From a virus, in IMG/VR virus record IMGVR_UViG_3300028925_007496, positions 1 through 29,160 of that record: a stretch of DNA of 29,160 nt. One strand, written 5' to 3'. Made by a program: the position numbers and the translations under genes. The notes beneath the pieces were generated by a model, which saw nothing but the letters and a program-made list of their open reading frames with translations, made no database searches and was not told where the DNA came from. Positions 4,582 to 28,075 of this stretch are shown here, piece by piece. Each line of letters begins with the position of its first letter. Within the stretch, counting starts at the first letter, position 1.

Positions 4582-4801
4582 TAGATGATTTTTTGTTAAT
4601 TTTTTCTACATAATGAGAACCATTATCAACCTCCTCATAAACCCAAGCTAACTCCTCTTGTGTAGCGCTATTCCAACGAACACGAATACCACCAAACCGA
4701 GTTGCTGCATCTTTCATTTTTGCTTTATATTCTGCCATAGTTGTATATATATTAATATGTGGCAAATCTACCACATAATTTTTCTTATTACAATTACACA
4801 T
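4514..4801 (-). CDS. Unknown small protein with CNC start and lysine-rich tail
   Basis: 95 residues: MCNCNKK at the start, a central segment INIYTTMAEYKAKMKDAATRFGGIRVRWNSATQEELAWVYEE that looks like a small mixed alpha/beta fold, and a low-complexity tail rich in Lys, Ser, Glu and Asp (residues 68-95). The same MCNCNKK-plus-RFGG layout is familiar from uncharacterised Bacteroidota phage genes beside portals. The last 68 bp overlap the start of portal in another frame, so the charged tail may partly reflect the overlapping codons of the portal's basic N-terminus. Portal accessory or assembly function is a guess from position. Confidence 0.7.
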   Translation of the reverse strand: MCNCNKKNYVVDLPHINIYTTMAEYKAKMKDAATRFGGIRVRWNSATQEELAWVYEEVDNGSHYVEKINKKSSNEESDTKVIKKSSSKKKDSKEE

Positions 4802-4813
4802 ACAAAAGATATT

Positions 4814-4840
4814 AGCAGGGAGTGTTTATAACCCCCTGCC
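4814..4840 (-). terminator. Strong hairpin between tail-tube candidate and next gene
   Basis: On the minus strand, 4839-4832 (GCAGGGGG) pairs with 4822-4815 (CUCCCUGC), 8 bp with one G-U pair. It can be extended by one U-A pair, leaving a 7-nt loop. It is followed by UAAUAUCUUUUG rather than a clean U run. It may be a leaky terminator or an RNA processing or stability hairpin separating the highly expressed capsid and tail-tube genes from portal. The pairing is clear; the function is not. Confidence 0.5.
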
Positions 4841-4851
4841 TATCTTAAATA

Positions 4852-5439
4852 TTAAGAAGTTGTTGCTGTTAAATCTCCTGCTACAACAGTTATCGTACCT
4901 GAATATTCTAAAGGTAACTCAAATTGTCTTGCCGTTAATGTAACTGTAACTCCATTGTCATCTGCGTATGCTGCTCCTGTTCCTCCTTCTATGGAAGTAA
5001 GGTTTGCATAAGTTTGATTTCTAATCCAAGGAGAAGCACTCTCTGATAAGTTTTCGTATTTATATGAAAAACCTACTAAAAGCTGAATTCCTGAATTCAT
5101 CTCAATTAAAGCCACAGGGCACTCAGGCTCTATTTTTTTAAGTTGAGCCCATCTACCTGCGTCAACATCTGGAAGATAAAAAGATAAAGCACACTCATAC
5201 GCTGTACTTCCACCTTCTTTAGTTCCTGATATAGCTAAAGCAGCAGTTTCATTCTTAAACTCAAAACGAGCCCAAGGATTAGTTACTGTAAAGCCTGTTA
5301 CGATATGGTCGGCTGCAGCTGGCCCTGGCGAAGGAGTAACTGTAGCAACATTACCTAAATCTGTAAGTAATATTTGTCTAATTCCCCCTACTGCGTTCAA
5401 GTCGCCACAATCTACTAAAAGTCCTGTATCTATTGCCAT
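4852..5439 (-). CDS. Tail tube or other major virion protein candidate
   Basis: 195 residues, beta-rich, starting MAIDTGLLVDCGDLNAVGGIRQILLTDLGNVATVT. The 'CGDLNAVGGIRQILLTDL' opening is like the start of small structural proteins of Bacteroidota phages in which a GGI-[RK]-x-[IV] strand leads into a tail-tube-like barrel. Later parts include FKNETAALAISGTKEGGSTAYECALSFYLPD and a GIQLLVGFSYKYEN strand. It lies 26 bp after the major capsid gene and before a strong hairpin, consistent with an abundant virion protein. A head decoration protein is an alternative. No catalytic motif is visible. Confidence 0.6.
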   Translation of the reverse strand: MAIDTGLLVDCGDLNAVGGIRQILLTDLGNVATVTPSPGPAAADHIVTGFTVTNPWARFEFKNETAALAISGTKEGGSTAYECALSFYLPDVDAGRWAQLKKIEPECPVALIEMNSGIQLLVGFSYKYENLSESASPWIRNQTYANLTSIEGGTGAAYADDNGVTVTLTARQFELPLEYSGTITVVAGDLTATTS

Positions 5440-24593: not shown

Positions 24594-25250
24594 TGTTTTT
24601 ACCTCCTTTATATTTACTTGCATATACTTTAGTTTTCAATTTTTTTTATATTTTTTTTTCACTTCCATAAACTGCTGAATATTCCATTTTATTTACTATA
24701 CCTTTGAAATCTTATAGAATATACTGTTGCTCATATCGCAACTAGCATATTTGATAACCTTCTTAAAATAATTATCATGTTTAAATTCAAAATTGGTAAA
24801 TTAACTATACAACTTCTTCCTCCTAAAATAACTTGGAATATCTAATTATGAAATTGGATTTAGAATACTTGCGTGGGTGTATGTGTGGTTAAGAATAGGA
24901 ATTTTCTAAAATTACGGAATTTGCTCCCAAACTTGCAATTTATCTCTTAAAATCAGAATTTTAACACTTTTTGCTGCAAAACTTCATTAAATAATCTTTT
25001 TTAAAACTTTCTGCTGAAAAATTAGGATATAAAGAGGAAAAAAGCAGCTAATTAAAAGAGTTTTCTCTAATTTCTTTTAACTAACTGCAATTAATTTTGA
25101 TTAACAACCGAACAACAAAATCACTACAAATAAAAATGCTATTGTATATTCGTTAAATGGTATCTTGTCAAACTGATTAAAAGTGTTTTATCATAAAAAA
25201 ATGTGTTAATTAGTGCCGAATATTTAGAGGCTTTCAGCGTTTGCCTGTTC

Positions 25251-26492
25251 CTATTGTATATCATATTTGTAAATAGAGCACCCTGTATAGTTATTGTAAA
25301 GTGCGTTTTCTTCTCTGCATACGTCATCACGTTCTTCTACGTATGTACTGCAATCGTCACAGATGTATTCTTCCTCTACCTCTGAGTATCTTATTTCATC
25401 CTCATGGGTTGTACAGTCGCAACATTCGCATACCGTTCCGCTGTCGTTCTCGTCCTCTCCTTCTGTACTTGTGCAACAAATAAAGTCATTATCTCCTGAA
25501 TTAGAATTTATAAACCATTTTCCTGAATGTCTGCCAATACTTTGGAATGTGTCCGAATACGGGAAGCTCTCAAAATCATCAGAATCGAAATCTAAAATAA
25601 TAGGCTTCAATAATATTTTCTCTTTGCTTCTTTCCGTTTCTACATCTCTGTAAATTGGTTGTTCGTCTTTGTCGTTTCTGCCTGTGTTTATTGTTTCAGT
25701 AACTATCTTGCGCTTAACATCTCTGAATACCTGAATATTAAATTTTTCTTGTATATTTTTAATTACTGAAGTATCTAATGAATCAGTAAATTTACAACCA
25801 AAACCAAAAGTCAAAATATCTTTGTCTTTTTCTTTGCCCATTAGGTTTGTCAATACTTCAGTAATTAGCTTCTTTTGGTACTCTTTGCGTATTTCATTAT
25901 CTCCATTAACTGAGGTTTGTTCGTAACTATTATCTAACCAGTAATTATTAGTGTCCTTATCGTACCAAAGTAGGGAACGAATCAAAACTGTGTCTTCTTC
26001 ATCTGTTAAGGTTGCTAACTGTAAATTTTCTGTCTTATCGTACACTTCAAACCAGCTCTGGTAAGCTCTGGCCATACAACCAACAACTGATGCTGTATTA
26101 TAAACTCTGCTAATATCTGAACCGCTAAATAACACTAATTTGGTTTTTAAATTGCTTATGAAGTCCCTTGTGAATTGTTCTGACAAACTATTAAAAAGTG
26201 TAGTCTTGTTGGTCGGTGCTATTATCATACTGTCTAAAAATTTACTAGGCTTAACTGCTGTAAAATATTTTTCTCTTTGCTCTGTATCATTAGGCTTTAA
26301 TTTAAAACCTTTAATATTCTCCTGTAATTTTTCTATTCTGTCAGACTTAATATATGATATTTTTGTACTGTTGCCTTTCATTCTTTTTATATGTAAATAT
26401 TCTTTTTTGAAGTCAGGATTCAGCGTAAAGCCTAAATTTGTAAAAATTAATTGATAATCTTTAATAAGTTTATTGAGTGTTTTTGTTTTCAT
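25251..26492 (-). CDS. Phage protein with central CMA/LLW motif and zinc-type C-terminus
   Basis: 413 residues. The central region has Val-Val-Gly-Cys139-Met-Ala-Arg followed by FEVYDKTENLQLATLTDEED and IRSLLWYDK...NYWLDNSYEQTS. This resembles uncharacterised proteins found in many phages in which a 'SCM' motif is followed by a sheet of 'fe.Y..n......L......i.gRaLlW....yldriY'. The C-terminal 80 residues are rich in Cys and acid residues: ICCTS near 338, VCECCDCTTH near 355-362, EEEYICDDCSTYVEERDDVC, and TGC near 405. They look like one or two zinc knuckles of a kind seen in phage proteins (CxxC...EYxCxxC). The role is unknown; binding of nucleic acid or of a host protein is possible. It is 2 bp after the 47-residue gene. 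Confidence 0.7.
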   Translation of the reverse strand: MKTKTLNKLIKDYQLIFTNLGFTLNPDFKKEYLHIKRMKGNSTKISYIKSDRIEKLQENIKGFKLKPNDTEQREKYFTAVKPSKFLDSMIIAPTNKTTLFNSLSEQFTRDFISNLKTKLVLFSGSDISRVYNTASVVGCMARAYQSWFEVYDKTENLQLATLTDEEDTVLIRSLLWYDKDTNNYWLDNSYEQTSVNGDNEIRKEYQKKLITEVLTNLMGKEKDKDILTFGFGCKFTDSLDTSVIKNIQEKFNIQVFRDVKRKIVTETINTGRNDKDEQPIYRDVETERSKEKILLKPIILDFDSDDFESFPYSDTFQSIGRHSGKWFINSNSGDNDFICCTSTEGEDENDSGTVCECCDCTTHEDEIRYSEVEEEYICDDCSTYVEERDDVCREENALYNNYTGCSIYKYDIQ

Positions 26493-26494
26493 TG

Positions 26495-26638
26495 TTAATA
26501 TATTAAGTTAGTAAATATGATGACAAACCCTGTTGCAATTAATAAGGCTGTTGCTGTCCCTATTGCAAATGTTATTGCTTCTGCAATTACATCTGTAAAA
26601 GTTTTGTTTTCTGTAAAAATTGTTTTTTTGTTTTTCAT
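26495..26638 (-). CDS. Small membrane protein, 47 residues
   Basis: ATG at 26636-26638, TAA at 26495-26497. The sequence begins MKNKKTIFTENKTFTDVIAEAITFAIG, followed by one long hydrophobic helix (about residues 24-43) ending FTNLIY. The NKTFTDVIAEAI segment before a Gly-Thr-Ala-Thr helix recurs in short membrane proteins of Bacteroidota phages. It is the first gene after the hammerhead-like cleavage site and is separated from the 413-residue gene by 2 bp. The A-rich AATTTTAAAAAG before its ATG is like other starts here. Function unknown. Confidence 0.65.
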   Translation of the reverse strand: MKNKKTIFTENKTFTDVIAEAITFAIGTATALLIATGFVIIFTNLIY

Positions 26639-26659
26639 CTTTTTAAAATTTAGTTAGTT

Positions 26660-26711
26660 AGTAAAAGACGCTTCTCAGCGTTTCGGACTTTTAGTCCTCG
26701 TCAGTTTTACT
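26660..26711 (-). ncRNA. Hammerhead ribozyme (type I topology)
   Basis: On the minus strand the conserved core is complete. CUGACGA at 26704-26698 fits CUGANGA. Helix II pairs 26697-26693 (GGACU) with 26689-26685 (AGUCC) around AAA. GAAA follows at 26684-26681. Helix III pairs CGCU 26680-26677 with AGCG 26672-26669, capped by a GAGA tetraloop (GNRA class). The cleavage triplet GUC is 26669-26667, so the cut falls between 26667 and 26666. Helix I pairs AGUAAAA 26711-26705 with UUUUACU 26666-26660, seven pairs without mismatch. RNA ends enter through helix I. Every known invariant core base is present. It sits between the 75-residue and 47-residue genes, in transcript sense. Confidence 0.93.
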
Positions 26712-26934
26712 TTTTTGCATCTTCACACATAGCAAAAATTTCTATAGCTTCCTCCGTCAACTTATTGTTTTGCTCAATTAATAATTTTGTCCTAATTTCA
26801 AGTACTATGAAGGGTAACACAACCGCTACGCACTTATGTTCTTTATTATAACCAACCGCCAAACCGATTAATTTCTCAAAGTTTGCAATTATTGTTATTT
26901 CTTTTTTGCTAGTTGTAATTTTGAATTTTTCCAC
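26707..26934 (-). CDS. Unknown 75-residue protein upstream of the ribozyme
   Basis: 75 residues, starting with GTG at 26934; no in-frame ATG precedes it before a stop at about 26961. Sequence: MEKFKITTSKKEITIIANFEKLIGLAVGYNKEHKCVAVVLPFIVLEIRTKLLIEQNNKLTEEAIEIFAMCEDAKK. Strand-rich first half, helical second half, no recognised domain. It is the first gene after the TATCTTTG promoter (about 30-nt leader), and its stop codon TAA (26709-26707) lies in helix I of the ribozyme. An early regulatory or host-takeover protein would fit such a position, but nothing in the sequence proves it. Confidence 0.65.
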   Translation of the reverse strand: MEKFKITTSKKEITIIANFEKLIGLAVGYNKEHKCVAVVLPFIVLEIRTKLLIEQNNKLTEEAIEIFAMCEDAKK

Positions 26935-26969
26935 TTTATTATGTTTTTGTTTTATGTCTTATGACTGTG

Positions 26970-27003
26970 CAAAGATAACAATTAATTACATAAACAATAC
27001 AAA
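26970..27003 (-). promoter_or_regulatory. Bacteroidota-type promoter
   Basis: Minus-strand TATCTTTG at 26977-26970 is a full match to the Bacteroidota -7 consensus TAnnTTTG. Upstream, TTTG at 27003-27000 (22-bp spacer) or TTG at 26997-26995 (17-bp spacer) could serve as the -33 element; both lie in the accepted spacing range. Transcription would start near 26963, about 30 nt before the GTG of the 75-residue gene. The host sigma factor would read it, so this is likely an early or host-dependent promoter. Confidence 0.78.
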
Positions 27004-27021
27004 TTATTTAAAAGTTTTGAT

Positions 27022-27040
27022 ATTTAGAACCATTCTAAAT
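27022..27040. promoter_or_regulatory. Perfect 8-bp dyad upstream of the promoter
   Basis: ATTTAGAA-CCA-TTCTAAAT is a perfect inverted repeat of 8 bp with a 3-bp spacer. It lies about 19-40 bp upstream of the -33 element, at about -60 to -78 from the expected start. A dimeric regulator could bind there, as activator or repressor. The small HTH protein at 27486-27686 is a nearby candidate. AT-rich sequence makes short dyads common, but an uninterrupted 8-bp arm is uncommon. Confidence 0.45.
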
Positions 27041-27196
27041 AAGGATAATTTATGTATATATTGAACGCGAATAATAAAATATTTGAATTGACAATAACAA
27101 AAAGTAATTATTTTTTATTATGTTAAATTGTGAAAGTCTGAAAAATCTTTAAGAAAATTACACTAAGGGAGGGGAGAAGTCAATTAATCTACCTTT

Positions 27197-27342
27197 ATAT
27201 ACAGCCCTAGCAGTTTCAAGGCTCTGGCAGTTTCAACAGGTTTGGCGGTTTCAACAGGTTCAAAAAAATTTTGGTCAAAAAAAAATTTTGAAAAATAAAA
27301 AAAATAAAAAATAATTTTAATATACAGCCCTAGCAGTTTCAA
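27197..27342. repeat. Short repeats flanking a pure A/T tract, origin-like
   Basis: Two identical 23-bp copies of atatacagccctagcagtttcaa lie at 27197-27219 and 27320-27342. Between them, two 18-bp tandem units (27226-27243 ggcagtttcaacaggttt and 27244-27261 ggcggtttcaacaggttc, 16 of 18 equal) follow a shorter related unit at 27209-27225. From 27262 to 27319 the sequence is nearly all A and T, in long A runs with a repeated caaaaaaattttg-like element. Iteron-like repeats beside an easily melted tract is the layout of a replication origin. It also fits a binding array for a regulator. It lies between the early terminator and the middle promoter. Confidence 0.6.
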
Positions 27343-27404
27343 CAGGTATTTTGCGGTTGTATAATATGGCATGTTAACGAAACATAATCTTAAAATTTTC
27401 GTAT

Positions 27405-27485: not shown

Positions 27486-27686
27486 TTAGAGTTTTATATA
27501 TGTTTTATACCTAAGTATCTTATTTACGATTGATTGGCTTACAGCGTACTTAATGGCTAACTGTGCTTGTGTGAACGCACCTGTTTCGTACTCTAACCTA
27601 ATGTTTTGTGCTTCTGCAAAAGTGAACTTACGCTTTGCATACCCACCACCCCTCATGTCTTTTCTTTCGTATATGTTTATGCTCAT
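27486..27686 (-). CDS. Small helix-turn-helix DNA-binding protein
   Basis: 66 residues. After a basic start (MSINIYERKDMRGGGYAKRKFTFAEAQ), residues about 28-62 read NIRLEYETGAFTQAQLAIKYAVSQSIVNKILRYKTY. This is a clear helix-turn-helix: helix FTQAQLAIKYA, turn VS, recognition helix QSIVNKILRYKTY. Such domains occur in phage regulators and in the DNA-binding modules of HNH homing nucleases. Here it stands alone, so a repressor or activator is most likely. ATG overlaps the stop of the VRR-NUC gene by 4 bp (ATGA). It is the last gene before the terminator, and the repeat array and dyad are next to it. Confidence 0.78.
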   Translation of the reverse strand: MSINIYERKDMRGGGYAKRKFTFAEAQNIRLEYETGAFTQAQLAIKYAVSQSIVNKILRYKTYIKL

Positions 27687-28075
27687 ATCTTTTTATTAAA
27701 GTAATCATCTATCGTTTGCATACTCTCGTCTATCCCTTTAGTAACTCTTGCACAATACCCTACTTCGTTTAAGTATGCTATCCATTCTTTCTGTTCTTTA
27801 GTTGGGTAAGATTTCTTGTCCTTCTTTATTTCTAAGAACAATCCATGATATACCCCCCCCCTCTTAGTACCCCCCTCCCCATCTACTCCTCTCTCCATAG
27901 GGAAACAGATCTGTAGGTCAGGGAATCCTTTTACATATCCAGTAGCTTTAGCTTTGACTGCCTGCTTAAAGGATGTTCTTATTCCCCCAAGACTAGCGCA
28001 ATACTTTACTTTAGGATGCTTCAGTTGGAGATACCTTACGACTCCTTTTTGTACTTCTTCTTCTTGATTTCTCAA
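27683..28075 (-). CDS. VRR-NUC domain nuclease
   Basis: 130 residues, starting at a TTG (28075). The sequence fits the VRR-NUC family of PD-(D/E)xK nucleases: RNQEEEVQKGVVRYLQLKHPKVKY (start helix with Glu), ASLGGIRTS, KGFPDLQI with Asp53, then GLFLEIKKDKKSYPTKEQKEWIAYLNEVGYCARV with Glu82, Lys84 and Gln95. It acts on branched or linear DNA, probably in replication, recombination or head packaging. It overlaps the upstream membrane protein gene by 65 bp and the downstream HTH gene by 4 bp. Spacing between Asp53 and Glu82 is long because of a Gly-rich insert (ERGVDGEGGTKRGGVY). Confidence 0.88.
   Translation of the reverse strand: MRNQEEEVQKGVVRYLQLKHPKVKYCASLGGIRTSFKQAVKAKATGYVKGFPDLQICFPMERGVDGEGGTKRGGVYHGLFLEIKKDKKSYPTKEQKEWIAYLNEVGYCARVTKGIDESMQTIDDYFNKKI

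Follow-up and report, generated by a model that had tools for sequence, protein, structure and literature searches.

A type I hammerhead ribozyme between two operon genes of a probable Bacteroidota phage, and the class of phage hammerheads to which it belongs

We identified a type I hammerhead ribozyme at positions 26660-26711 on the minus strand of a viral DNA of 29,160 nt (IMG/VR record IMGVR_UViG_3300028925_007496; 'the window' denotes this whole stretch). Its identity is strongly supported by a covariance model of other phage hammerheads, by a relative with compensatory base changes and by the covariation of a putative tertiary contact. The ribozyme lies between genes 1 and 2 of a small-gene operon, and we consider it probable (roughly 0.8) that it serves to split a polycistronic phage mRNA as this is transcribed.

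The element and its operon

Read from 26711 to 26660 on the minus strand, the element is AGUAAAA-CUGACGA-GGACU(AAA)AGUCC-GAAA-CGCU(GAGA)AGCG-UC/UUUUACU, the slash marking the predicted cut (Table 1). It thus contains CUGACGA, GAAA and a GUC cleavage triplet, where the hammerhead class requires CUGANGA ... GAAA ... NUH, and these are arranged around a stem I of 7 bp, a stem II of 5 bp and a stem III of 4 bp plus the A-U core pair. Since stem I is open and stems II and III are closed by loops, the topology is type I. Unconstrained minimum-energy folding gives precisely the hammerhead helices (-14.1 kcal/mol, z -3.06). An earlier note, made from the letters alone, had described a complete minus-strand hammerhead with all core bases, helices of 7, 5 and 4 bp plus the A-U pair, and a GNRA tetraloop, with a cut predicted between 26667 and 26666; sequence and fold bear out every part of this description, its coordinates included, and the flanking minus-strand genes (75 residues, membrane protein, 413 residues) are likewise as it gave them. 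One detail refines that picture: the UAA stop codon of the 75-aa gene lies within the 5' strand of stem I. The core columns are invariant across 101 phage hammerheads, the variable position excepted, and the combination of a 7-bp stem I with a stem II triloop is a minority form of the class. Neither pattern scans nor the covariance model described below (model R2) found a second hammerhead in the contig, 26660-26711 being the sole copy. Hammerhead self-cleavage leaves a 2',3'-cyclic phosphate on one product and a 5'-OH on the other.

Table 1. Coordinates of the hammerhead, its parts and the surrounding operon in the window
Feature	Positions	Strand	Basis
Type I hammerhead ribozyme, complete (three helices and catalytic core)	26660..26711	-	sequence; model R2, 64.1 bits; MFE fold
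Stem I, 5' strand AGUAAAA; holds the stop codon of the upstream gene (26709-26707)	26705..26711	-	
Catalytic core CUGACGA	26698..26704	-	sequence; class alignment
Stem II GGACU/AGUCC with AAA loop; loop base A26689 covaries with U26660	26685..26697	-	
Catalytic core GAAA; A26681 pairs with U26668	26681..26684	-	
Stem III CGCU/AGCG with GAGA (GNRA) tetraloop	26669..26680	-	
Predicted cleavage site, C26667 (2',3'-cyclic phosphate) / U26666 (5'-OH)	26666..26667	-	position of the GUC triplet; established hammerhead chemistry
Stem I, 3' strand UUUUACU; predicted 5' end of the downstream message	26660..26666	-	
Upstream gene, 75 aa, no known family	26707..26934	-	
Downstream gene, 47 aa, predicted membrane segment; homologues in L008, L014 and L052	26495..26638	-	
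Second downstream gene, 413 aa, Cys-rich C-terminus	25251..26492	-	
Candidate promoter-like sequence of Bacteroidota type (TTG ... TATCTTTG), preceding the operon	26970..26997	-	read from sequence

A sequence similar to the promoter-like one is present in L008, a close relative. Homologues of the 413-aa protein occur in several relatives (24-69% identity); these, like the homologues of the 47-aa protein, were reached only via relatives identified by their terminase. The 413-aa protein matched no Pfam or PHROGs family, a peptide-pattern search with the 413-aa and 75-aa proteins returned no relatives, and no similarity was found between the operon DNA and annotated phages. Because the nearest annotated terminases belong to Croceibacter and Cellulophaga phages (37-43% identity), the source is probably a Bacteroidota phage with a marine flavobacterium as host. 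Upstream of the operon promoter, a non-coding-looking stretch (27190-27370) holds imperfect repeats of 'TTGAAACTGCTAGGGCTGTATAT', and a 130-aa protein encoded at 27683-28075 weakly matches the VRR-NUC nuclease family, with 19.2 bits against a Pfam threshold of 23.8.

Chance expectation, covariance models and relatives

Random sequence matching the window in dinucleotide frequencies (4.78 billion strand-bases) yielded the core together with stems of at least 3/3/3 at 393 places (0.0048 per window) and with stems of at least 6/4/4 at four, i.e. about 5e-5 per window, which agrees with the earlier statement that core and stems are very unlikely to coincide by chance. Model R2, a covariance model of 100 phage hammerheads from which the window's own sequence was left out, scored the element at 64.1 bits (E 3.1e-13, filters off), the runner-up in the window reaching 12.9 bits. 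Rfam at gathering thresholds returned nothing in the window, and under relaxed settings the element scored below threshold with both RF00163 Hammerhead_1 (21.9 bits; threshold 34) and RF03152 RAGATH-1-hammerhead (19.6 bits; threshold 56.3). This miss is uninformative, because 12 phage contigs with unmistakable hammerheads, several of them with three or more, also had no Rfam match at threshold; hammerheads in contig L115 score 25-30 bits. Scoring with the Rfam models had been suggested as a check: the element does fall below both thresholds, but these tend to miss the class, so that the check alone is misleading. We therefore file the element as a hammerhead and not as a match to RF00163, whose threshold is insensitive to this class. 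The missing Rfam match is also all that speaks for a chance resemblance to the hammerhead pattern, a reading that is refuted by the expectation from random sequence, the R2 score and the compensatory changes in a relative.

That relative, the diverged L076 (73% terminase identity), is the only one with a hammerhead among 80 records with a related terminase; pattern scans and model R2 detected no element in the other 79, and as many of the records are fragments, some hammerheads could be lost from view. Its hammerhead is placed equivalently in the operon, following the promoter and a first small gene, whose protein has no similarity to the window's 75-aa protein. All 17 of 17 pairs of the element are kept in L076, seven of them via double compensatory changes and none with a single change, so that the comparison of related phages proposed in the earlier note turns out in favour of the three helices. 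The L076 hammerhead (4784-4908) has a stem III region of ~85 nt and was found with a longer stem III limit, having been missed by the relatives' scan with stem III of 40 nt or less. This region folds into further hairpins and could hold a second structured element. A match in L060 was rejected as chance: it has a long unstructured stem II loop and stem III, no R2 score and UU at the cleavage site.

L008, the close relative, retains the promoter side (up to 26928) as well as the genes for the 47-aa and 413-aa proteins, but other small genes take the place of the part between about 26928 and 26630, which in the window carries the 75-aa gene and the hammerhead. Given that 79 of the 80 terminase relatives, many of them fragments, are without a detected element, the hammerhead is accessory and not essential to the lineage. 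It might accordingly be a relic that was brought in with the upstream gene cassette and that, while a hammerhead in structure, is inactive or too slow in the cell. The occurrence in one of 80 relatives, the replacement in L008 and a stem I that is A-U rich and lacks an internal loop all fit such a history. We nevertheless regard it as quite unlikely, as decay would break pairs, whereas the core bases, the 17 pairs and the covarying bases of the putative contact are all intact, and L076 retains every pair across its seven double changes.

The phage hammerhead class and its placement

When viral contigs were scanned for the core (ACTGANGAG...CGAAAC...GTC) irrespective of pairing, at least 120 matches were obtained, as was the case in a second pattern scan of viral contigs. 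Among the matches listed, all three stems form in 124 of 142 distinct raw core matches, although pairing was not required; the 100 hammerheads of model R2 were taken from these. In an alignment of 101 sequences, 94.2% of cells are paired, and 496 double changes are seen as against 136 in shuffles, values that are inflated because the sequences were chosen partly for pairing; the case consequently rests on the unselected tests, namely L076 and the loop II and stem I positions. Among unpaired columns the strongest covariation (z 32) is between the final loop II base and the base directly following a 6-bp stem I on its 3' side, which are U-A in 65, A-U in 21 and G-A in 8 of the 101 sequences. In a second set, in which the loop II base was fixed as U, all 87 of 87 partners are A; when the loop II base was fixed as A, a small set gave U twice and A twice, so that the rule is not absolute. 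With A26689 and U26660 the element has the A-U form of this pair. Fast hammerheads need a tertiary contact between loop II and stem I, and from the covariation we infer that the pair represents this contact.

The same class alignment bears on the proposal that selection acts on an intrinsic terminator or a 3'-end stabiliser, formed by stem III (ACGCU-GAGA-AGCGU followed by UCUUUU), and that the core match is incidental. A terminator scan hits exactly this hairpin as its sole match in 24900-27400, where 0.9 are expected by chance. The stem, however, has merely five pairs; the U-rich tail is present in five of the 101 class members and absent in L076; and the core, stem II and the covariation of loop II and stem I would be left unexplained. 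A G+C-rich hairpin with a U run, as expected of an intrinsic terminator, is present in the window but is not a conserved feature of the 101 members, and we judge this proposal very unlikely.

In prokaryote genomes the strict pattern occurs at six places in 257 billion bases, as compared to at least 120 in the same search of viral contigs; three of the six (in Mucilaginibacter, a Bacteroidia MAG and Aquimarina) are full hammerheads by scan. Judging from these searches, the phage type I hammerheads form a large class that is rare in cellular genomes and missed at Rfam thresholds. A member of the class, so far unannotated, lies ahead of the marR gene in the cultured Pelagibacter phage HTVC201P (L224, 1498-1580), and blastn of the 62-nt element gave real matches in pelagiphages; its matches in Escherichia and Salmonella phages lie inside primase/helicase genes and were dismissed as chance. 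An uncultured pelagiphage (L225, around 1500-1590) also has an unannotated hammerhead, and in both L224 and L225 the hammerheads are near small genes, ahead of a marR-integrase pair. In another phage contig, a type-P3 twister ribozyme above the Rfam threshold (L106, 174-241; 42.5 bits) precedes a hammerhead by about 370 nt.

The members of the class are found predominantly between genes. With a gene gap defined by a stop no more than 70 nt and a start no more than 60 nt away on the same strand, 66% of the 149 distinct members are so placed (random positions, 5%), and long ORFs on the same strand enclose 3% of them (random positions, 39%). In the window the distance from stop to predicted cut is 40 nt and that from cut to the start of the 47-aa gene 28 nt, the class medians being 45 and 26.5 nt, respectively. 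Of the 124 members with a clear upstream frame, 67 have the upstream stop within stem I or within the CUGANGA core, which is partly expected because UGA is part of the core, and 13 have it deeper in the ribozyme.

At least two hammerheads are present in 28 contigs among the matches listed (e.g. L103, L115, L142, L170). Within these contigs the identity is 0.75 for stem I (0.49 shuffled) and 0.63-0.65 for stems II and III (0.52-0.56 shuffled); the bases after stem I are also alike within a contig, and the upstream flanks are not. Every processed message within one phage may thus share the same leader. In 23 viral contigs (L089, L157, L205, L318-L337) we observed a hammerhead-like leader, CUGAUGAG, stem II, CGAAACAA...CGGAGUC, just before a start codon, with a Shine-Dalgarno sequence at the expected place of stem III; this is not an ordinary hammerhead, because stem III is absent and stem I has 1 to 6 bp.

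Hammerheads are also capable of ligation, and the likeness of stem I within contigs would permit an exchange of halves, so that cleavage plus ligation might generate spliced, trans-joined or circular RNAs rather than simple splitting. With a single hammerhead in the contig, however, neither circles nor exchange would arise from the window alone, and a search by Perreault et al. 2011 (PMC3088659) for products of splicing or circularisation was negative, which makes this reading improbable in the extreme.

Proposed role and comparison with known systems

Splitting of the mRNA remains the most likely function. The earlier note had read the element in this way, and this is the best explanation, in keeping with the class-wide placement in gene gaps; the sequence, its structure, the covariation and the placement are observed, and cleavage in vivo, separate messages and a coupling to translation are what we infer for the operon. 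Once the operon is transcribed and the 3' strand of stem I emerges, the RNA would fold and cut itself after C26667, during or just after transcription. The first message would comprise the 75-aa gene, with the ribozyme and a 2',3'-cyclic phosphate at its 3' end, and the second the 47-aa membrane protein and the 413-aa protein behind a 28-nt leader with a 5'-OH. As the upstream stop lies within stem I, a ribosome terminating there would cover the ribozyme, and translation of the 75-aa gene may therefore tune cleavage. Only tentatively, and with the odds against it, do we extend this to the class as a whole: phage hammerheads might constitute a distributed mRNA-cutting system tied to translation, in which the ribozyme occupies the gap between genes, its stem I or core supplies the upstream stop, the terminating ribosome holds it open and each cut leaves the following gene with a short leader of near-fixed length.

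Taken alone, the element is one more well-supported hammerhead of a known kind, and the class-level result is the more useful one: phage type I hammerheads sit almost exactly in gene gaps, and a model including the covariation of loop II and stem I should recover the class that is missed at Rfam thresholds. Cultured phages, e.g. Pelagibacter phage HTVC201P, make the role of phage hammerheads directly testable.

With regard to the Rfam families, the element resembles RF00163 Hammerhead_1 in its open stem I and in a match over the full length of the model (positions 1-45), and differs from it in that the stem sequences and loop II depart from the consensus. With RF03152 RAGATH-1-hammerhead the core and the stem I/III region align, but a 29-nt insertion is needed and the conserved upstream hairpin of the model falls in coding sequence here. 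Theta (HDV-like) ribozymes (PMC10879173) are likewise self-cleaving and found in genomes of gut phages; they belong to another class and are linked to suppressor tRNAs, not to gene gaps in mRNA.

The closest precedent is the work of Perreault et al. 2011 (PMC3088659), who reported bacterial hammerheads in the hundreds, many of them close to prophage genes, including clusters that flank single genes or short blocks in prophages; they proposed that long phage transcripts are processed to operon- or gene-length mRNAs and found that phage-associated hammerheads cleave in vitro and in E. coli. Given this prophage precedent, the earlier claim that mRNA splitters are rarely described in phages of this sort is too strong. 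The element shares with their hammerheads the core, the three helices and the location between phage operon genes. It differs in being a single copy instead of a cluster, in its phage lineage, in the stop codon inside stem I (the term 'stop codon' is absent from their main text) and in a loop II contact that would consist of one base pair instead of their multi-base pseudoknot. The element is therefore of the same kind as the hammerheads of Perreault et al. 2011, genuine but typical, and of lower novelty than first estimated; on an open-access comparison, which may have missed later reports of phage hammerheads, what is added to their work is the class-level picture.
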